This document shows positions 5,251-39,859 of a DNA stretch of 64,000 nt, piece by piece; the first letter of the stretch is position 1; every line of letters starts with the position of its first letter. Source of the stretch: Paludibacteraceae bacterium (GTDB lineage: Bacteria; Bacteroidota; Bacteroidia; Bacteroidales; Paludibacteraceae); the NCBI GenBank assembly GCA_017394705.1, contig JAFPXH010000005.1:226564-290563 (forward strand), in the 5' to 3' direction. Position numbers and translations under genes: made by a program. The notes beneath the pieces are model-generated. The model worked only from the letters and a program-made list of their open reading frames with translations, had not been told where the DNA came from and did not search any database.

Positions 5251-5279
5251 AAAAAAAGGGCGAGGCTGTGCCCCACCCT
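5251..5279 (-). terminator. tracrRNA terminator hairpin
   Basis: A 10-bp stem with two G-U pairs and a TGT/ACA loop (5257-5279), followed on the minus strand by T7. It is 26/30 identical to the terminator at 13421-13450 on the far side of the CRISPR-Cas module. Confidence 0.85.
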
Positions 5280-5329
5280 AAATGTTTACACATCGGAATA
5301 ATCCTTATTGTGTATGTCATTCAAAAAGT
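5251..5329 (-). ncRNA. tracrRNA of the type II-C system
   Basis: The minus strand reads ACTTTTTGAATGACATACAC followed by AAT (anti-repeat, about 5325-5303). It pairs with the first ~21 nt of the crRNA repeat (GTTGTGTATGTCATTC and on) with about 20 contiguous pairs plus a wobble. A small stem GGA/TCC, a nexus-like hairpin ATGT-GTAA-ACAT and a terminator hairpin follow. The terminator is AGGGTGGGGC (5279-5270), a 3-nt loop and GCCTCGCCCT (5266-5257), then seven Ts. The promoter at 5334-5364 places the start about at 5329, right at the anti-repeat. The predicted length is about 80 nt. The 5' end is inferred from the promoter. Confidence 0.88.
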
Positions 5330-5333
5330 TGTG

Positions 5334-5364
5334 CAAAGTTACTACTTATTTTCTAAATATGCAA
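5334..5364 (-). promoter_or_regulatory. tracrRNA promoter
   Basis: On the minus strand, TTG (5364-5362), 20 bp, TAACTTTG (5341-5334), then CACAAC and the anti-repeat. The promoter ends only a few bases before the anti-repeat. The segment TAACTTTGCAC resembles TAGCTTTGCAC in the inserted part of the extended CRISPR repeats. Confidence 0.85.
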
Positions 5365-5382: not shown

Positions 5383-5755
<373 letters not shown>

Positions 5756-5781: not shown

Positions 5782-5809
5782 AAAAGCAGTACTCGAAAGT
5801 ACTGCTTTT
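5782..5809. terminator. Bidirectional terminator between cas2 and the array
   Basis: A perfect 12-bp stem, AAAAGCAGTACT (5782-5793) with AGTACTGCTTTT (5798-5809), and a CGAA loop. T-tracts are present for both strands. It would stop cas2 transcripts and also pre-crRNA coming from the cas1 side. Confidence 0.9.
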
Positions 5810-5811
5810 TT

Positions 5812-5864
5812 ACGTTCTAAAACTTGTTGTAACTTGTTGTGTTTTAGTGTATTATACGGAATCT
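5812..5864. other. Candidate leader next to the first repeat
   Basis: Between the terminator and repeat 1 lie a tandem decamer AACTTGTTGT (5821-5840) and a segment TTGTGTTTTAGTGTATTA that resembles a degraded copy of the first half of the repeat. This end has intact repeats, while the other end is truncated, so it is the more likely integration end. That is inference. Confidence 0.45.
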
Positions 5865-7771
5865 ATTGTTTTAGTCCGTATTGTTTACTTTTTTGAATGA
5901 CATACACAACTGGTATTGATATTCGTCAATCTGTCGTTGTATTGTTTTAGTCCGTATTGTTTACTTTTTTGAATGACATACACAACGAACGTACAAGTAA
6001 AGCGATACAAAGTCTAATTGTTTTAGTCCGTATTGTTTACTTTTTTGAATGACATACACAACCGCTTCTGCAGCATCTTTGTCTGCCTTAGCATTGTTTT
6101 AGTCCGTATTGTTTACTTTTTTGAATGACATACACAACCGCACCTACCATGGGTGCGCCGTGATCATCATTGTTTTAGTCCGTATTGTTTACTTTTTTGA
6201 ATGACATACACAACTTTCCGGCGCTTTTTGTGGCGTTTGCGGGGATTGTTTTAGTCCGTATTGTTTACTTTTTTGAATGACATACACAACTGCAAGTCAG
6301 ACAACGAGAACTACCCGCCGATTGTTTTAGTCCGTATTGTTTACTTTTTTGAATGACATACACAACCCATACTGCAGAGTAGGCAATGCACGAGTGATTG
6401 TTTTAGTCCGTATTGTTTACTTTTTTGAATGACATACACAACCCATACTGCAGAGTAGGCAATGCACGAGTGATTGTTTTAGTCCGTATTGTTTACTTTT
6501 TTGAATGACATACACAACAAGATTACTTATTGTCAGCAGCTCTCCCGTATTGTTTTAGTCCGTATTGTTTACTTTTTTGAATGACATACACAACTTATCG
6601 ATCCAGTAGCCATAAGGATACATAATTGTTTTAGTCCGTATTGTTTACTTTTTTGAATGACATACACAACTGGAATACCTCGAGTTCCTTATGTGCGAGC
6701 ATTGTTTTAGTCCGTATTGTTTACTTTTTTGAATGACATACACAACAGTTCTCCGGATACGATGCCAAGATAGACAATTGTTTTAGTCCGTATTGTTTAC
6801 TTTTTTGAATGACATACACAACATAGATGGTGGTCTTATCATCGGACTTCGATTGTTTTAGTCCGTATTGTTTACTTTTTTGAATGACATACACAACCAG
6901 AAATAACTGGCATACCAGGTGGTTCTTATTGTTTTAGTCCGTATTGTTTACTTTTTTGAATGACATACACAACGCGCCTCCGAAGAGGTTCACGCGCTTC
7001 ATGATTGTTTTAGTCCGTATTGTTTACTTTTTTGAATGACATACACAACGGAACGGCAAAAGATTTTATTTGCATTTCTATTGTTTTAGTCCGTATTCTT
7101 AGCTTTGCACGATTACTGGTTTACTTTTTTGAATGACATACACAACTTGATAAGCAAAAGATGATAACACTTCAAAATTGTTTTAGTCCGTATTCTTAGC
7201 TTCGCACGATTACTGGTTTACTTTTTTGAATGACATACACAACCGCTGTCACGCCACTGGGCATAGAACACATATTGTTTTAGTCCGTATTGTTTACTTT
7301 TTTGAATGACATACACAACGCCTTGCTTGTTGCTTGTAGTGCTATATCGATTGTTTTAGTCCGTATTGTTTACTTTTTTGAATGACATACACAACATAGT
7401 ACCTAGAAGGTTGTTATATGTGTCATTGTTTTAGTCCGTATTCTTAGCTTCGCACGATTACTGGTTTACTTTTTTGAATGACATACACAACTTGCAAATG
7501 TTTACGGTTCAAAGTTAGGTCATTGTTTTAGTCCGTATTCTTAGCTTCGCACGATTACTGGTTTACTTTTTTGAATGACATACACAACGGCATCATGGAG
7601 TTCTTCACCGATCACTATCTTGTTTTAGTCCGTATTCTTAGCTTCGCACGATTACTGGTTTACTTTTTTGAATGACATACACAACGTGGGATTATATTAA
7701 ACAAGGCCAACGCTTATTGTTTTAGTCCGTATTCTTAGCTTCGCACGATACTGGTTTACTTTTTTGAATGA
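5865..7771 (-). CRISPR. Type II-C CRISPR array, 24 repeats of two lengths, 23 spacers
   Basis: Read on the minus strand, the crRNA-sense repeat starts GTTGTGTATGTCATTC and ends GGACTAAAACAAT. Eighteen repeats are 46 bp (R1-R16 from 5865, R19 at 7274, R20 at 7350). Six (R17 at 7080, R18 at 7177, R21 at 7425, R22 at 7522, R23 at 7619, R24 at 7716) carry a 21-bp insert at one fixed position and are 67 bp; R24 is cut short at 7771 and lacks one base of the insert. Spacers are 30 bp, except two of 29 (starting 6823 and 7396). Spacers at 6367 and 6443 are identical. The sense orientation is fixed by the tracrRNA anti-repeat. The array follows the cas1 stop codon after about 5 bp in the same direction, with no room for its own upstream leader. 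Confidence 0.98.
7080..7771. repeat. Block of extended 67-bp CRISPR repeats mixed with two normal ones
   Basis: On the plus strand the insert begins CTTAGCTT and ends GATTACTG, sitting between CCGTATT and GTTTACTTTTTT of the standard repeat. The copy in R17 reads TTTG where the others read TTCG. The order is E E N N E E E E(truncated), so extended and normal repeats alternate in blocks. All inserts are at the same base and carry no duplicated flank, so independent insertion is unlikely. Confidence 0.95.
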
Positions 7772-7776
7772 TACTT

Positions 7777-8661
7777 TTACCAATCGGGATAGATGATTTT
7801 TCTTGCTTCACCTGAGTAACATTTCTGTACACTTTGAGCCGTTGTTTGGATAGCTAACATCATTGGGCTGCGATGTCCGGAGATGTTCACATCCATGGTG
7901 GTTATCCCTAATAATTCGCGTTTTTGGTCAGATGAGATATCGCTTGTCACTCCACCCTTGCTCCACATCTCCAACACTTTCATGTCCACAAATGGGCGGT
8001 AAGGCTCCATGATATCATCCGCCAAACAATACGCGTCATAGCGGCTATGATGATGAATGCCTAATGTCGGCAATAATCCTGCTCCGACTAATGCTCTTGC
8101 CATCATCGCTCGCACAATACTATAGCCATAATTGAGCAAATTATTGGGAGGTAAGCCTTGCGGGTCACGAATAAACGCATCCTTCTCGAACATATTGCGC
8201 CAATAGAAGGCAGCTGCTCGCGCCTCCATGTTATCTGTATCACCAGAACGCACATCTTTTGCCCATTTGAGCATGTTGTTATGCTCTATATGCTGTGTGC
8301 CTAAAATATGTGCTTGACCTAATATTTTAGCAACTACCGTTTGTTGCCACATCTGTTTCTTGAGAGGTTCAGAAGCATCTATTTGCGCCCGGAAACGCTC
8401 GCTTTGCAGAGTGTTTCCGTCCAAAGGTAGCATCAGACCGACAGGAAGATGCTTGTCGTTACTTGTTACAATCGCCACATTATTAGCAAGTAGCGCATCG
8501 ATAAGCGCATGAGTGATGGTTATTTGCTTATGATCGAGAATGACGACACCAATATCTTCAATAGGCAGCGTGCGGGTTACATCTTGCAACTCGACCACCA
8601 TCTGCGTTAACTTAAGGCTCAGCCGCGCAGGGTTCTCAAAACATAAGACGCGTTTAATCAT
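7777..8661 (-). CDS. cas1: CRISPR-associated endonuclease Cas1
   Basis: Cas1 is the integrase that inserts new spacers. The 294-residue protein is of type II form. Metal ligands are visible: Glu in DNMEARAAAFYW (about residue 146), His in GIHHHSRYDAYCLADD (about 204) and the Asp/Glu pair in DDIMEPYRPFVD (about 214-218). The start codon overlaps the cas9 stop by one base (TAATG), indicating translational coupling. The stop codon is followed after about 5 bp by the truncated last CRISPR repeat. No cas4 or csn2 gene is present, which supports subtype II-C. Confidence 0.97.
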   Translation of the reverse strand: MIKRVLCFENPARLSLKLTQMVVELQDVTRTLPIEDIGVVILDHKQITITHALIDALLANNVAIVTSNDKHLPVGLMLPLDGNTLQSERFRAQIDASEPLKKQMWQQTVVAKILGQAHILGTQHIEHNNMLKWAKDVRSGDTDNMEARAAAFYWRNMFEKDAFIRDPQGLPPNNLLNYGYSIVRAMMARALVGAGLLPTLGIHHHSRYDAYCLADDIMEPYRPFVDMKVLEMWSKGGVTSDISSDQKRELLGITTMDVNISGHRSPMMLAIQTTAQSVQKCYSGEARKIIYPDW

Positions 8662-11600
8662 TACTCAATTATATTTCCCAAGCGGTCAACTTTAATAGGA
8701 ATACAAATTTCTTTTATAAGTGATTCTTCCGCACAAATACGGGATATCTTATTCAATTGAGTGTATTCTACTTTATTGACAATCGGAGACGCAACTGCTA
8801 CAGGAATAAAATATGCATCCGTATCACTTGACGAAACAAACTTATAGATTCTTGATCTATCTATTTCTAATGCGCTATCAGATTTAAGAACATAGACTAA
8901 ATCACCAGGAGAAAGGATGAAATTTAATTTTGCATTCATGGCTACAAGATTTTCGCCGTGTACCCATTTGTCTAACCATGTGCGCCATTCTTTCTTTCCT
9001 TGTTTCTGACAATCCACAGCAACTTTGAATGGTATAGTGACAAAAGAGCGTTTTTCAGAACCATCATCCATCTTTGTTGAATAAACCGCAAAAAACAGGT
9101 TAGTTCCCTTATCTGCCTCAACGAACTTTTTGCTCTTAGCGCCAATTTGCCCCACCGCAAATTTCTCTGCTTTCTCGTACGTGCGTACCTTAAATATAGG
9201 TTTATGGGGTACACCGTTATTGAGAGCCTGAATGTCCGCATTCATTTTCTCAATACCATCCGGAGAGAACGCTAATTTTGGATCGTTATTGCAACGCTCC
9301 AAATGTGCCAAGAGAATCTTCTGGATAGCTTCCGAAGTTACTTTATTACGGATGTAATCTTCTGTAAAGGAATCATCCAAAGCCGTTCTTACCGCATAGT
9401 AATGGTCGTTTGTATCCTTGGTATAATAGAAAACTTCAATACGTTTTAGATTCACATCTGCCCAAACATCAGGCTCAGAGGCAAAGTATTGCTTGATTTG
9501 CTTTTCGTTTTTGCCTTCCTGCAACAATTCCTTCAGTTTTGCACGCAAATCCTTCTCTACAATATCTTCTACGTGTTGGAGTGCATATGTTAGATTTACA
9601 TATTTCTTTCTACGCAGGTTGACTTCTCCGAAAACAGTTGCTTTGTGCAGAGACTTGCGAATTGACCAGTTTTCACCTTTCTCTTGAGGATCTCTTTTCT
9701 TTTTTAGTTTTCCTGTTTCTTCATCTTTTACAAAATGAACGAAATGGTTATTGCTCTTATTAATAACACGCAAGTTCTGTTTGAAGCTGACCACTATATT
9801 TTCCAGCGTTTCTTGCACATCTTTTTGGAAGCCATCATAAGGAGCGATAAAATCTGTAAATTTATAATGATCTTTTCCATCTGCGCTTCTCCATACTTCG
9901 CGTTTGCGCAGCAATGTTTGCAGGTCATAACGTGCTTTTTCGTCTTTGTCTAAGGCGGATTCATTACTCAGTAGAGCTACATGATTGCGTGTAGTAAAGG
10001 CAATAACTATCGCATCCATAGCATGGTGGCGATGATCAATACGCTTTTTCTCAAATCCTTGTTTGAGTTCCAAAGGCATATTCGGAATAATATGACCGTT
10101 TGCTGTTTTTGCAGTAAAGACCGTAGTGTTTTGTATCTGATTCAGTCTCTCGAAACGCGGAAGAATAATCTTATTCCACACATCATTTATACCCCAATCT
10201 TTCTTCAAACGTGTAGTTGTTGCTCCGTTGCAGACAATCAAATTTTTGCTAACTGCTTCCGGCTCATATTCCGTATTACTGATTTTCTCGCGAACAATAT
10301 TGCTAAGTAATTGCATCATCAGTCGGCTAATATAACGGCTATCATTCATTTGTCGAGCGACAAACTTCTCAGGAATCTCATCCAACATCAGTTTTTCTTG
10401 TTTACGCGGATCTCCTGCAAAATTCTTTTTTATAATATCTTCATATGCTTGTAGAGACAATACTTGTACCACTTTTCCTCCGGAAAGCGTAATGTTCTCT
10501 CCTCCACATTGAGCGATAAACTCATGTCCCAACATGCGATCTTTACGTGCATTTACTTCTGCTTCACAAATGACTTTGTTGGACATCGAATCATCAAAGA
10601 AGCGCGATTGAGGAATAACATGCTCAATCTGGTATGCCGGTGTAAAGAGTTTAGCTAATGGAATAATCTCACCTGTATATGGAGAAACATACTTCTGATC
10701 AAGCCACAAACGGTATTTCTTTATATCCTGTAACGATGGCTGTTTGAGAGACGATAAATCATTAATAATACGCTGTGTATCATCATCCGGTTTATAAGCT
10801 GACAACACACCATCTTCATAGATACGGAACAACTCTTGCTGACTCGGAGAATAGGCATGAACTTCTTCCACATCCATCTCTGGATTCATAAATTCCTGCA
10901 AAAGCAATTTAGCACGCAAATTTGCTTTCTCATTCTCCTGCTGGCGTAGCATGGTTTTCTTGCGTTGCTCTGCATTTTGCTTGAGATCACGACCTAATTC
11001 GATATGTATTTCATCAATTTGTCCTTCTTGTTTCCAAATATCACGAACCGTTCTTAGGCTTTCCATTACTACTTGCTCCACAATGGGGTTGTTGAGCGAA
11101 TGTAAACGGAATGATTGCAAATATTTATCTATATCTTCCGGCTTCTCCCATTTGGTGTCATTCTTGCGCACATCATAAACAACATATTCCGCAAGCCACA
11201 ATGGAAGTCCCTGAAAATCTTTTACTTCATGCATTGTGTCCAATTTCTCGCGAACACGTTCACTAACCGAGTCATCCACTTCTCCGGTTAAAATATGGTC
11301 AATACGAGATTTTGTTTGAGCATCTATCGCTTCTTCGCTCCAATACTCTCCGCTACGCATTAAGTTCAGTAACTTGCGCGTAGCCTTTTCGCTATATGCT
11401 CCGTAGTCGGAAAATGGTTTCATCTTACCTAATTTCTCTACAAACACATCGGACAGATGGTTTGTTTCAGCATAATGTTTGAGCGCAGCGAGTAGTTGAG
11501 ACTTATCAGTTATTGAATAGAGCATGTGCCATATTTGCTCTAAATTATTGATAATTCTATTATTCTTTTTGGCTTTCTCGTCTTGTTCTTTACCTGATAA

Positions 11601-13238
11601 TTTTCTATGATGCTTGTTTTTGCGGATTTCAAATGGATCGGTCAAAGTGTTGATGTCTCCACCTGCCTCTTTAATAGTACCAATTATAGTAGAGGAAACA
11701 GGAGCAGCAGGGTATTTCTTGTCATTCTCAGACACGAAATTCCAAGATAATCCTTTAATCTTATTTTTACCAACTAATTGCGTTAATAGAGATTTTTCTG
11801 AAACCTCTTTTTGTGTTAGCAGCCAAGAGATTAAATCCGCTTTGTTAGCAATATACTCTGTGGTACAATCTTCCTTGCCTATTCCATTAGCAGCCTCTCT
11901 ATAGATATGTAAGTTTTCCACAAACTGCCATAAACGGAACTCTTCATAAATAGGATGAGATTTGGAGATACATTTCAAGTATTGTTTTTGCCATTTATCA
12001 TCTTTTTCCTTAAATACATAATACTCGTACGGACATTCGTTGATTAGCGACTTCTTGCTTTTCAGCGGACGTTGATAGAAGATAATATCATTTAACAGCA
12101 AATACGTAAAATCCTTGCCGGCTATACTATTCCGATAAGCTTCATTTTGTGGATACAGCGCATGAATACACTCATCATACAAATCTCCATTTTGCAATTC
12201 GGGAATAAACTGCTTTTGAGTATCAAGGATGCGTTTTAACTCGTCCTTATAGTATTTTCGGTCAACGACACGTACCAACTGACCGATAATCTTTTGATCC
12301 GGATTTTGTAGCAAAGCATCGTAGATAAATTCTCCGACGGTTTTGTGGCTTGCATCAATATCGTGTTGGGTCTTTAGTTTTAAAAGTCCCCAATCATCAT
12401 CTGCCGGCGCTCTAAATGTTCTTCTAACTATACCATCTTTATCCATTGCATCAGTTCCATCGGAATTAAGAGTGGTTGAAACAATGAAGTTTTTAGTTTT
12501 ACCTTCCCAATCTAAGGAATATTTGCTTTCTTTGGTAAAAATCCATCCATTTTCAAGACATACTTCATATACCGATTTTCCTTTTGACTTTTCGCCGGTA
12601 TCGCGAACAGAAATAACTTTTTGTGTTATAAACTCTTGGCGCTTATTCTCTTTCTGCTCTTCTTCCTCTCCGCGGGCTTGATTATAACCGCGTTTTTGAT
12701 TAAACTGCTGAAGAATCCAAGCTAATTCCTGCTTACTAATAGGCTGAGTTAAAGCTTTTTTACGCAGATAATAAATCGTCCAATCATATGCAATGTTTCG
12801 TTCGTTTACCAGCAATTCCGGATGTGCGTTTCCGAAATCCTTTACCATTTCAAGGAATGAATCTTTGAACAAGAACGAATACTTCCCGTCAACAACATCC
12901 CATGCTAATTTGGGTTCAGCTCCTTTATTTAACTGACCATAGCGATTCAACTCTTTGGTATAATGATCCGGCAAGAAACCAAGAATTGTTAAAACTCGGT
13001 TTAGACGTTCTCTGCGCAAAGCGTGACGCTCGTACAAACGTCTCGCGCCTCGTGCGGCAGTACGAGTTGCTGTCTGGGAGATCGAATTACCGCTTTCAAA
13101 ATCTCCCATTAACTTGGCATCCATAGGAATAATACGGCTACCTGCATGAGAAATGCTTTTCATGCCGTTTTCATCATTAACTACTGCCCAACCGATACTA
13201 TTGGTTCCTAAATCTAAACCGAGAATTTTCTTCTTCAT
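8661..13238 (-). CDS. cas9: CRISPR-associated endonuclease Cas9, type II-C, large form
   Basis: Cas9 is the RNA-guided double-strand DNA nuclease using crRNA and tracrRNA. Its 1525 residues are long even for Bacteroidetes II-C enzymes. RuvC-I is ILGLDLGTNSIGWAVV at the N-terminus, followed by the Arg-rich bridge helix (RTAARGARRLYERHALRRER, about 65-85). RuvC-II is EIHIELGRDLK (about 745), HNH is YQIEHVIPQSRFFDDS with a downstream NARK (about 870-900), and RuvC-III is HRHHAMDAIVIAF (about 1075). The catalytic Asp, Glu, His and Asp positions are all kept. About 450 residues follow RuvC-III, a long PAM-interacting region. The frame extends 10 codons upstream to a TTG, but that TTG lies in the -7 box, so the ATG at 13238 is the start. 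Confidence 0.98.
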   Translation of the reverse strand: MKKKILGLDLGTNSIGWAVVNDENGMKSISHAGSRIIPMDAKLMGDFESGNSISQTATRTAARGARRLYERHALRRERLNRVLTILGFLPDHYTKELNRYGQLNKGAEPKLAWDVVDGKYSFLFKDSFLEMVKDFGNAHPELLVNERNIAYDWTIYYLRKKALTQPISKQELAWILQQFNQKRGYNQARGEEEEQKENKRQEFITQKVISVRDTGEKSKGKSVYEVCLENGWIFTKESKYSLDWEGKTKNFIVSTTLNSDGTDAMDKDGIVRRTFRAPADDDWGLLKLKTQHDIDASHKTVGEFIYDALLQNPDQKIIGQLVRVVDRKYYKDELKRILDTQKQFIPELQNGDLYDECIHALYPQNEAYRNSIAGKDFTYLLLNDIIFYQRPLKSKKSLINECPYEYYVFKEKDDKWQKQYLKCISKSHPIYEEFRLWQFVENLHIYREAANGIGKEDCTTEYIANKADLISWLLTQKEVSEKSLLTQLVGKNKIKGLSWNFVSENDKKYPAAPVSSTIIGTIKEAGGDINTLTDPFEIRKNKHHRKLSGKEQDEKAKKNNRIINNLEQIWHMLYSITDKSQLLAALKHYAETNHLSDVFVEKLGKMKPFSDYGAYSEKATRKLLNLMRSGEYWSEEAIDAQTKSRIDHILTGEVDDSVSERVREKLDTMHEVKDFQGLPLWLAEYVVYDVRKNDTKWEKPEDIDKYLQSFRLHSLNNPIVEQVVMESLRTVRDIWKQEGQIDEIHIELGRDLKQNAEQRKKTMLRQQENEKANLRAKLLLQEFMNPEMDVEEVHAYSPSQQELFRIYEDGVLSAYKPDDDTQRIINDLSSLKQPSLQDIKKYRLWLDQKYVSPYTGEIIPLAKLFTPAYQIEHVIPQSRFFDDSMSNKVICEAEVNARKDRMLGHEFIAQCGGENITLSGGKVVQVLSLQAYEDIIKKNFAGDPRKQEKLMLDEIPEKFVARQMNDSRYISRLMMQLLSNIVREKISNTEYEPEAVSKNLIVCNGATTTRLKKDWGINDVWNKIILPRFERLNQIQNTTVFTAKTANGHIIPNMPLELKQGFEKKRIDHRHHAMDAIVIAFTTRNHVALLSNESALDKDEKARYDLQTLLRKREVWRSADGKDHYKFTDFIAPYDGFQKDVQETLENIVVSFKQNLRVINKSNNHFVHFVKDEETGKLKKKRDPQEKGENWSIRKSLHKATVFGEVNLRRKKYVNLTYALQHVEDIVEKDLRAKLKELLQEGKNEKQIKQYFASEPDVWADVNLKRIEVFYYTKDTNDHYYAVRTALDDSFTEDYIRNKVTSEAIQKILLAHLERCNNDPKLAFSPDGIEKMNADIQALNNGVPHKPIFKVRTYEKAEKFAVGQIGAKSKKFVEADKGTNLFFAVYSTKMDDGSEKRSFVTIPFKVAVDCQKQGKKEWRTWLDKWVHGENLVAMNAKLNFILSPGDLVYVLKSDSALEIDRSRIYKFVSSSDTDAYFIPVAVASPIVNKVEYTQLNKISRICAEESLIKEICIPIKVDRLGNIIE

Positions 13239-13265
13239 GGTATCTGTATCTTTAAATTTTGCTCG

Positions 13266-13296
13266 CAAAGGTAATACATTTTTCTGAAATGTGCAA
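13266..13296 (-). promoter_or_regulatory. cas9-cas1 promoter
   Basis: On the minus strand, TTG (13296-13294), 20 bp, TACCTTTG (13273-13266). The 5' leader would be about 22 nt. This may be the only upstream promoter for cas9, cas1 and the array. Confidence 0.85.
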
Positions 13297-38480: not shown

Positions 38481-38511
38481 TTGCAAGTATGCAAAAAAAG
38501 TTGTACCTTTG
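38481..38511 (+). promoter_or_regulatory. Promoter of the lipoprotein gene at 38579
   Basis: TTG (38481-38483), 20 bp, TACCTTTG (38504-38511). The 5' leader would be about 60 nt. Confidence 0.8.
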
Positions 38512-38578
38512 CCGCCGCAAAGGTTTTACTACCGGTGCCAACTACAAAAACAATAGACAATCTATATTCAATAACATT

Positions 38579-39859
38579 ATGAAAGATTTTACTCATCGTG
38601 CCCTTGCGGCCAAGAAAAAGAGTTCTTATTTATTTGCTATGCTGGTTGCAGCGGTTGCAATAACGTTCACTGGCTGTGGCGAACAGAATGAGCCGGAAAA
38701 CCCCTCCAAGTTCAAAATCAGTACATCGAATGTGACGCAGACTTCATTCGATATAGAGATTGTGCCTGCTGATAAGAATATATATTATATATTCGGCAGA
38801 ATGAAAAGCGCACAATTCTTAGAGCGACCGAATGTGTTCGCTAAAACATTTATTACCTCAGGAACCTACCCTCAGAATCTCGTTAATGGCACACAAAAGG
38901 AGAGTTATATCAATCTGAATTCCGGGACTGAATACGCCGTCTTCGCATGTGAAGTGAACGAAAACTATGAGATAGTCGGGGATGTCGAGTATGTGCTCGT
39001 CACGCCGGGTGAGAGTTCCTCTATACCGGAAGAGAAAGTACCGGAAGGTGCAATAGCGGGCAAGTTCAAAATCTACGGTCGTACGATTTATTTCTCCAAA
39101 GGTAATCTTCAGTACAGAGCTGGTTCGTACAACACATGGCGATTCGCCGAACATCAATGGGAAATCATAGGTGCAGAGAACGAGAAGATATCCAAAGATT
39201 ATACAGGATGGATTGATCTGTTTGGGTTCGGCGCTACCGGCTACAACCAGCGCATGCCGTATCTCGGTAACGAATCTACTATATTTAACACATCTGAAAA
39301 CCTTGAGGGTACATATTATGATTGGGGAAATTATTGTATCATTGAGAACGGAGGAAATACTCGAGGCATTTGGCGTACGCTGGACCCAAAAGACTGGGAG
39401 TATATAATCTTCAATAGACCTAATGCAGCACAACGGGTAGCCTTGGCTCAGGTCAATTCAATCAATGGCATGATTCTGTTACCGGATGAATGGAATCATC
39501 CAGCCGGCGCGCCTGACATACTTTTCAATATGAATGATTTTACGGCAAATAAATTTTCCGTCAGTCAATGGGAAAAGATGGAAAAAGCCGGTGCTGTTTT
39601 CTTGCCGGCTGCCGGGTATCGTGATAGTAAACAGGTTTCTTCTGGTGGTAAAATAATTGACGAGCCTAATCATGTCTTTTCGGTTGGTACACTAGGACTA
39701 TATTGGTCATCCTCTATTAATGATGGATATTCTTCTTATCATTTGATATTCCCTTACTGGTATGATTTCGCTGGTGAAACTAAATTTGAAATGGCTAAAA
39801 TGAGATGGAGTGATTATAACGTTGGTCTCTCCGTCCGCCTCGTGCAGGATGTAAAATAA
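38579..39859 (+). CDS. Lipoprotein with FISUMP-like C-terminal domain
   Basis: A 426-residue protein starting at 38579; an upstream extension to 38489 would cross the promoter. The signal peptide ends in a lipobox (VAAVAITFTGCGEQNE), so it is likely a membrane-anchored or surface lipoprotein. A fibronectin-like domain (about 35-140, TSNVTQTSFDIEIVPAD) is followed by a C-terminal domain that begins FKIYGRTIYFSKGNLQYR. The ending GLYWSSSINDGYSSY plus VGLSVRLVQDVK resembles the fibro-slime / major paralogous (FISUMP) family, in which a variable region is displayed in a conserved frame. The ligand is unknown. Confidence 0.82.
   Translation: MKDFTHRALAAKKKSSYLFAMLVAAVAITFTGCGEQNEPENPSKFKISTSNVTQTSFDIEIVPADKNIYYIFGRMKSAQFLERPNVFAKTFITSGTYPQNLVNGTQKESYINLNSGTEYAVFACEVNENYEIVGDVEYVLVTPGESSSIPEEKVPEGAIAGKFKIYGRTIYFSKGNLQYRAGSYNTWRFAEHQWEIIGAENEKISKDYTGWIDLFGFGATGYNQRMPYLGNESTIFNTSENLEGTYYDWGNYCIIENGGNTRGIWRTLDPKDWEYIIFNRPNAAQRVALAQVNSINGMILLPDEWNHPAGAPDILFNMNDFTANKFSVSQWEKMEKAGAVFLPAAGYRDSKQVSSGGKIIDEPNHVFSVGTLGLYWSSSINDGYSSYHLIFPYWYDFAGETKFEMAKMRWSDYNVGLSVRLVQDVK

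Follow-up and report, generated by a model that had tools for sequence, protein, structure and literature searches.

The repeats of a CRISPR array are normally of one length, which is held by the measuring activity of Cas1-Cas2. Type II-C systems of Bacteroidota have been described from Riemerella anatipestifer (PMC6008519) and Flavobacterium columnare (PMC8092290), and can be compared with the locus presented here. As in Riemerella, there are cas9, cas1 and cas2 genes, repeats of 46-47 bp, spacers of 30 bp and a leader between cas2 and the array, and, as in Flavobacterium, the array is transcribed towards its leader, a direction that we deduce from the anti-repeat of a predicted tracrRNA. In contrast to both systems, array and cas2 are inverted relative to cas9 and cas1, and some of the repeats measure 67 bp through the presence of an inserted element.

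In a type II-A system, insertions on the leader side of the sequence that acts as a ruler shift the second integration cut equally, such that the repeat end is kept (PMC6895254), and the natural case resembles this one in that a leader-side insertion lengthens the repeat while the far end is retained. In that study, however, the engineered changes comprised 1-3 nt, the insertions being single bases, and spurious, off-site events were seen together with relatively high use of the old position in vivo, so that a natural 21-bp insertion in a type II-C repeat may behave differently. Insertion sequences, prophages and plasmids have likewise brought foreign DNA into CRISPR loci, but in the reported cases (PMC10359306, PMC3718332) they interrupt cas genes or lie between two repeats in the manner of a pseudo-spacer, whereas here the element resides within several repeats. 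Among the literature matches listed, as judged by title and the start of the abstract and with subscription literature mostly outside the scope, we found no paper on a dispersed element inside CRISPR repeats. The interest of the locus lies in such an element riding in the repeats and in a natural test of repeat-length control, because 67-bp repeats with intact ends put to the test what portion of the repeat Cas1-Cas2 measures in a type II-C system.

Organization of the CRISPR-Cas locus

The stretch of Paludibacteraceae DNA that we analysed (the window, 64,000 nucleotides, from genome G000) carries a type II-C CRISPR-Cas locus composed of cas9, cas1, the array and cas2. The cas2 gene is on the plus strand (5420..5755; NCBIfam TIGR01573, E 4.4e-17), and the minus strand carries cas1 (7777..8661; NCBIfam TIGR03639, type II Cas1, E 7.8e-89) and cas9 (8661..13268, 1535 amino acids as listed; NCBIfam TIGR01865, E 1.2e-115; Pfam RuvC_III, HNH_4 and Cas9-BH). 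No further large open reading frame is present in the cas block, and an NCBIfam scan of two neighbouring genes returned no match to csn2 or cas4. The inversion of array and cas2 relative to cas9-cas1 is shared by four other loci of the genus (L025-L028), and cas9, cas1 and cas2 are all on one strand in those of loci L029-L061 that show all three genes.

A tracrRNA is predicted on the minus strand at 5251..5341. Its anti-repeat (5336-5308), the pairing partner of the 3' portion of the repeat as read on the plus strand, is located just behind the sequence TAACTTTG (5341-5334), which we take to be a -7 promoter motif, and before a terminator hairpin with a T run near 5260. In G175, another genome of the genus, 72 of 74 aligned bases of this predicted RNA are identical. 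Because the predicted anti-repeat is on the minus strand, the guides should be read from the minus strand. The presumed leader, which includes a conserved inverted repeat (5786..5864, no strand assigned), occupies the stretch between cas2 and the array and shows conserved blocks in an alignment of 10 genomes of the genus. Since this cas2-side stretch is conserved in 10 genomes and the opposite end abuts cas1 with a broken repeat, we take the cas2 side to be the young end of the array, and the long repeats are taken to lie at the old (trailer) end. At gathering scores, Rfam matches in the window were confined to RNase P and a tRNA. Judged by eye, the promoter-like motif TAnnTTTG is often present halfway along the repeat in type II-C arrays from other Bacteroidales (L033-L061), but not in the genus repeats nearest to those of the window, nor in the insert.

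Two repeat lengths within one array

The array (5865..7771, with leader side at 5864, trailer at 7771 and crRNA sense on the minus strand, as assigned via the tracrRNA anti-repeat) comprises 24 repeats. A sequence-only reading had pointed to 67-bp repeats amid 46-bp ones, and our reading of the array confirms this observation: 18 repeats (R1-R16, R19 and R20) measure 46 bp, and five (R17, R18, R21, R22 and R23) measure 67 bp, with the extra 21 bp located after base 18 of the plus-strand repeat. The remaining repeat, R24, is truncated at its far end and holds an insert that lacks one T (20 bp). Thus six repeats do carry the insert, as had been noted, but they are not six copies of the same 21 bp; the inserts of R18, R21, R22 and R23 are identical, that of R17 differs by one C>T substitution, and that of R24 by the 1-bp deletion. 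Similarly, the statement that spacers remain 30 bp long holds for 21 of 23, the spacers after R13 and R20 having 29 bp. The order reported earlier for R17-R24, E E N N E E E E, where E denotes a long and N a short repeat, stands unchanged, as does the finding that both kinds of repeat lie between normal spacers of a single array.

From the leader side, the long repeats begin with R17 (7080..7146, insert 7098-7118) and R18 (7177..7243, insert 7195-7215), which are followed by the two short repeats flanked by long ones, R19 and R20 (7274-7319 and 7350-7395, together 7274..7395). R21 (7425..7491, insert 7443-7463), R22 (7522..7588, insert 7540-7560) and R23 (7619..7685, insert 7637-7657) follow, the last having C rather than A as its first plus-strand base, and the terminal R24 (7716..7771) stops 5 bp from the cas1 stop codon. 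All are on the minus strand in crRNA sense. A search with the insert that allowed up to three mismatches returned five matches in the window, compared to none in 100 shuffles, and the same five array copies were the sole matches across the whole G000 genome. By reading, the long repeat differs from the short one by an exact insertion whose junction shows neither duplication nor ambiguity. The target-site duplication expected of a MITE was likewise not seen at the insert when long and short repeats were compared by reading in G000/G175 and in G110. As a separate observation, spacers 7 and 8 of the array (6367-6396 and 6443-6472) are identical.

Read in the sense of the crRNA, the insert begins after repeat base 28, and the anti-repeat pairs with bases 1-24, giving a predicted repeat:tracrRNA duplex of -28.6 kcal/mol for long and short repeats alike. 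The prediction therefore places the insert outside the crRNA:tracrRNA pairing, in agreement with the earlier suggestion that it lies beyond the duplex, and we rejected the idea that the insert extends this pairing. The same reading had also proposed that the insert might alter processing or create a second RNA function. Neither proposal is supported, and an RNA function is unlikely: by established type II biology, the repeat segment that holds the insert would be trimmed from the mature guide, and the insert matches an element that is dispersed throughout the genus. Exact matches in viral contigs were found neither for the 24-base cores of five of the 23 spacers (four of them beside long repeats) nor for a 20-base core of the insert.

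A search of related genomes had been advised, with the prospect that the insert might be found in no related array. This prospect did not come true: when 178 genomes of the genus (G000 included) were searched with the 67-bp repeat, one other genome, G175, gave four full-length matches. From leader to trailer its array reads long, long, short, long, long, followed by a broken terminal repeat, and thus the leader-proximal repeat is of the long form. The sequence-only reading had noticed neither this contrast with the trailer-end position of the long repeats in the window, nor the direction of the array, nor the dispersed family described below. The inserts of the two genomes are identical at 21 of 21 bases, while three genes compared between them share 69.7, 78.8 and 78.5% DNA identity and the leaders agree at 66 of 76 positions. 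The Cas9 of G175 differs from that of the window. Its locus has no cas1 or cas2, and the genome gave no cas2 match at E 1e-20, suggesting that this array may be frozen. One spacer is present twice in the G175 array (L062), which points to array rearrangement or to repeated capture.

At the corresponding position, the terminal repeats of G110 and G175 carry a longer, related insert, and that of G170 carries a decayed one. Within each species, long and short units share the same end base of the repeat (A in G000 except for R23; C throughout in G175). The core of the short repeat, GTAAACAATACGG, also occurs in the arrays of G170 and G082, whose bodies are free of inserts, and hence the short form is most likely the uninserted form. 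Among 24 arrays of the genus that we examined (that of the window, eight more and a further 15), the insert is found within the array body in two, and in another two it is confined to the terminal repeat. The other 20 showed none by array period, flank reading and strict pattern, although a contig end hides the terminal repeat in some of them. A script detected no array in L067, L226 and L238. In other Bacteroidales, wherever an array was detected, the repeats measure 45-49 bp.

A dispersed hairpin family that includes the insert

With the terminal repeat of G110 as query, the insert part was matched elsewhere, without the repeat, in many genomes (at E 0.1, 55 of 178 gave matches, which in some cases involved other regions of the query). 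Inspection of these copies revealed a layout made of a constant AATCGT, a stem-loop that varies in sequence and length, and a constant TAAGAA. A strict pattern of this layout, AATCGTNCN{3,10}GNTAAGAA, in which a single stem C and a single stem G are prescribed and the outermost pair is left free, yielded 1517 matches in 141 of the 178 genus genomes (771 forward and 746 reverse), compared to 19 for the reversed pattern. G000 itself holds 24 strict matches (reversed control, 0), of which 19 are outside the array. When these 19 were compared with a non-overlapping selection of the longest open frames, one overlapped a frame of at least 100 amino acids, near the frame start, and 18 overlapped no selected frame. 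By hand tally, 180 genomes from other genera of the family gave 30 matches in 29 genomes versus 43 control matches; because this is background level, the hairpin family appears, at this sensitivity, to be a feature of the genus.

Copies occur singly or in tandem, with periods of 25, 26, 41 and 46 bp, and short-stem copies like those of the array exist elsewhere with exchanged stem bases, for example T..A and A..T in place of G..C. By eye, several dispersed copies (L144, L148, L149 and L152) have in front of them a second palindrome, variable in sequence, that ends beside AATCGT, which suggests a two-hairpin unit. The stretch upstream of the cas2 start is visible in eight of 11 cas2 loci, and a copy directly precedes the start codon in G020 only (L026:17767-17790, minus strand); none was found there in G000, G116, G170, G114, G121, G148 or G060.

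Covariation of the stem was examined in 53 distinct copies from outside CRISPR arrays, gathered with a loose pattern that does not require pairing. Of the 53 copies, 45 have a Watson-Crick outermost pair, compared to a permutation mean of 24.0 and with none of 10000 permutations as high, a count that leans towards pairing to the extent that some of the loci had been fetched with paired query sequences. An alignment was made from 36 of these copies. The 17 that were dropped comprise the one 20-mer that does not differ from the common insert, along with near-duplicates, some longer-stem copies and poorly paired copies, and owing to the last of these the 36-row counts also lean towards pairing. 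In these rows the outer pair is GC in 23, UA in nine, AU in three and another combination in one, and the covariation score is 0.299 versus 0.078 when shuffled; neither the number of pairs changed on both sides (2) nor that of further pair types (4) exceeded the shuffles.

A covariance model built from the 36 rows, and thus without CRISPR copies and without any 20-mer identical to the common insert, recognizes all five long repeats of the window at E 1.2e-4 to 1.5e-4 (in R17 at 7096-7115) and R24 at E 0.036. One row, a copy from G053, equals the R17 core, and other rows are one base off the common insert, so that the test demonstrates membership rather than blind discovery and is not fully independent. 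Over 49 Cas loci, the model gave 17 matches at E up to 1, and every matched locus came from the genus, four of them being represented twice. The array copies keep the constant flanks and the outer stem pairing of the family, with an inner stem of only two pairs. Single-strand DNA fold prediction of the short-stem version gave no stable hairpin (MFE 0.0), and for the long repeat the predicted fold is not superior to that of shuffled sequences (z +1.17). Pattern counts, stem covariation and the covariance model nevertheless show that a hairpin family is dispersed across the genus, that its stem covaries and that the insert is one of its members. A weak match of the model at 38593-38616 (E 0.045), inside a predicted gene (38489-39859) and near its start, may be an intragenic copy or a chance match.

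The closest parallels to this family are REP and REPIN elements, which are associated with RAYT transposases (PMC3733652, PMC2817692, PMC3116915). Like the REP/REPIN elements described in one report (PMC3733652), the members are short, mostly extragenic palindromes that are repeated and clustered and have variable stems between constant flanks. The description of REPs as short dispersed palindromes, mostly extragenic and in many copies, thus applies, with 1517 strict matches across the 178 genomes amounting to a modest copy number. However, the flanks are AATCGT and TAAGAA rather than a GTAG or CGTC tag, and copies per genome are far fewer than the more than 100 that are usual for REPs according to PMC2817692.

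RAYT-like genes are present in 131 of the 178 genus genomes, as judged by NF047646 matches that fall below the cut-off of that model; Pfam PF01797 matched in four of 10 genomes searched, and not in G000. Element copy number correlates weakly with the RAYT-like genes (Spearman 0.38), the median being eight copies in the 131 genomes with such genes and one in the 47 without, and relatedness together with genome completeness could be the cause. Around 11 distinct RAYT-like genes (14 loci, most viewed to ±1.5 kb), a family copy was found near one, approximately 2.5 kb away. With only a weak correlation and no flanking copies in the sampled loci, these genes are not supported as the mover of the element. 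The element is REP-like, yet it fails two REP features as tested, namely the tag and a linked RAYT gene. In G175, G082, G121 and G136, a RAYT-like gene lies inside the CRISPR locus itself; where located between cas genes and array (L062:10147-11232, L065:14526-15572 and L069:12529-13560), the gene encodes approximately 350 amino acids and holds an in-frame palindrome of another kind.

Origin of the mixed array

We consider it probable that a dispersed hairpin landed in an ancestral CRISPR repeat at a tolerated site and was duplicated together with the repeat, and that the changes of repeat type arose most simply by recombination between arrays. A copy of the AATCGT-stem-loop-TAAGAA element would have entered one repeat of an ancestor, at a site that may be tolerated by virtue of lying beyond the predicted pairing with the tracrRNA and closer to the leader than the position that would serve as the type II integration ruler. 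An insert on the leader side of the region that sets the second Cas1-Cas2 cut would be duplicated with the whole long repeat at spacer acquisition. Of the 46 bp of the repeat proper, 18 bp separate the insert from the leader end and 28 bp from the far end, and therefore a ruler near the far end would allow such whole copying. The occurrence of several long repeats with different spacers and both ends intact in two species fits this expectation. If Cas1-Cas2 did copy the long repeats, it cannot be measuring the entire repeat from the leader junction onwards, and the middle of the type II-C repeat, these arrays suggest, is able to hold a foreign element.

Simple leader copying leaves the return from short to long unexplained. 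The leader-proximal repeat type would have changed several times, most simply via recombination, within the population, of arrays that have long repeats with arrays that have short ones, and the return towards the leader is best explained by such an exchange, or by seamless loss if the short repeats derive from long ones. Gene conversion between repeats could be another route by which the insert spread. More tentatively, the locus may be a setting in which an immune system multiplies a small repeated element: a non-autonomous hairpin might use CRISPR adaptation as its amplifier and also leave repeats seamlessly, with the array toggling between two lengths while immunity continues, although we regard this fuller scenario as doubtful.

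The main competing possibility, to which we give some but limited credence, is that short repeats arose from long ones by precise loss of the hairpin, for example through fill-in of the single-stranded repeat once Cas1-Cas2 integration has taken place or by an enzyme that excises hairpins seamlessly, in which case losses alone would suffice and no reversal from short to long would be required. The old end of the G000 array is long, its new end is short and short units are interspersed, G175 has one short unit among long ones, and in each species the long and short units have the same end base (except R23 in G000), all of which speaks for such losses. However, the junction as directly read is exact and offers no microhomology, the insert has no predicted stable fold, and, with a short form that equals the GTAAACAATACGG core of the G170 and G082 arrays, several independent deletions would each have had to recreate that core. 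Selection for the insert in the array, be it as a promoter, a processing signal or a signal for spacer acquisition, could account for an identical insert in two species that share 70-79% identity in the genes compared, and for the persistence of related inserts in the terminal repeats of two others. We nevertheless judge this improbable, given that both species also use insert-free repeats, that 20 of 24 genus arrays (some cut by a contig end) show no insert, that the predicted tracrRNA duplex is unchanged and no stable fold is predicted, and that the element is found at many unrelated places as well.

A metagenome-assembled genome that is 71% complete in nine contigs, with repeats being a known assembly hazard, invites the question of whether an assembly artefact or a mixture of strains created the two lengths. 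We think there is little chance of this, considered jointly, as the same mixture of long and short repeats is seen in a second species with other neighbouring cas genes and related inserts occur in the terminal repeats of two more species, although the G000 contig itself may still combine two strains. The terminal, and thus oldest, repeats of four species hold an insert at the same place, as they would if it were part of an older, longer repeat of the lineage that resembles the dispersed copies by coincidence. This we regard as very improbable: recognition of the inserts by a covariance model derived from dispersed copies speaks strongly against it, the array copies follow the constant flanks and outer stem pairing of the family, and repeats of other Bacteroidales measure 45-49 bp where an array was detected.

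Two further arrays of the genus, L068:18435-19121 and L225:24-1443, each contain an irregular unit, with periods of 101 and 88 compared to the usual 75-77; the one in L068 includes a partial duplication of a repeat. In five species of the genus, the same repeat type is found together with a Cas9 that is very different (L062:6689-10150, L065:10167-13631, L066, L069 and L070). This divergent Cas9 has 1153-1154 amino acids where read and approximately 23% identity, and it is accompanied in some of the species by the same cas1 and cas2, an apparent case of Cas9 exchange.
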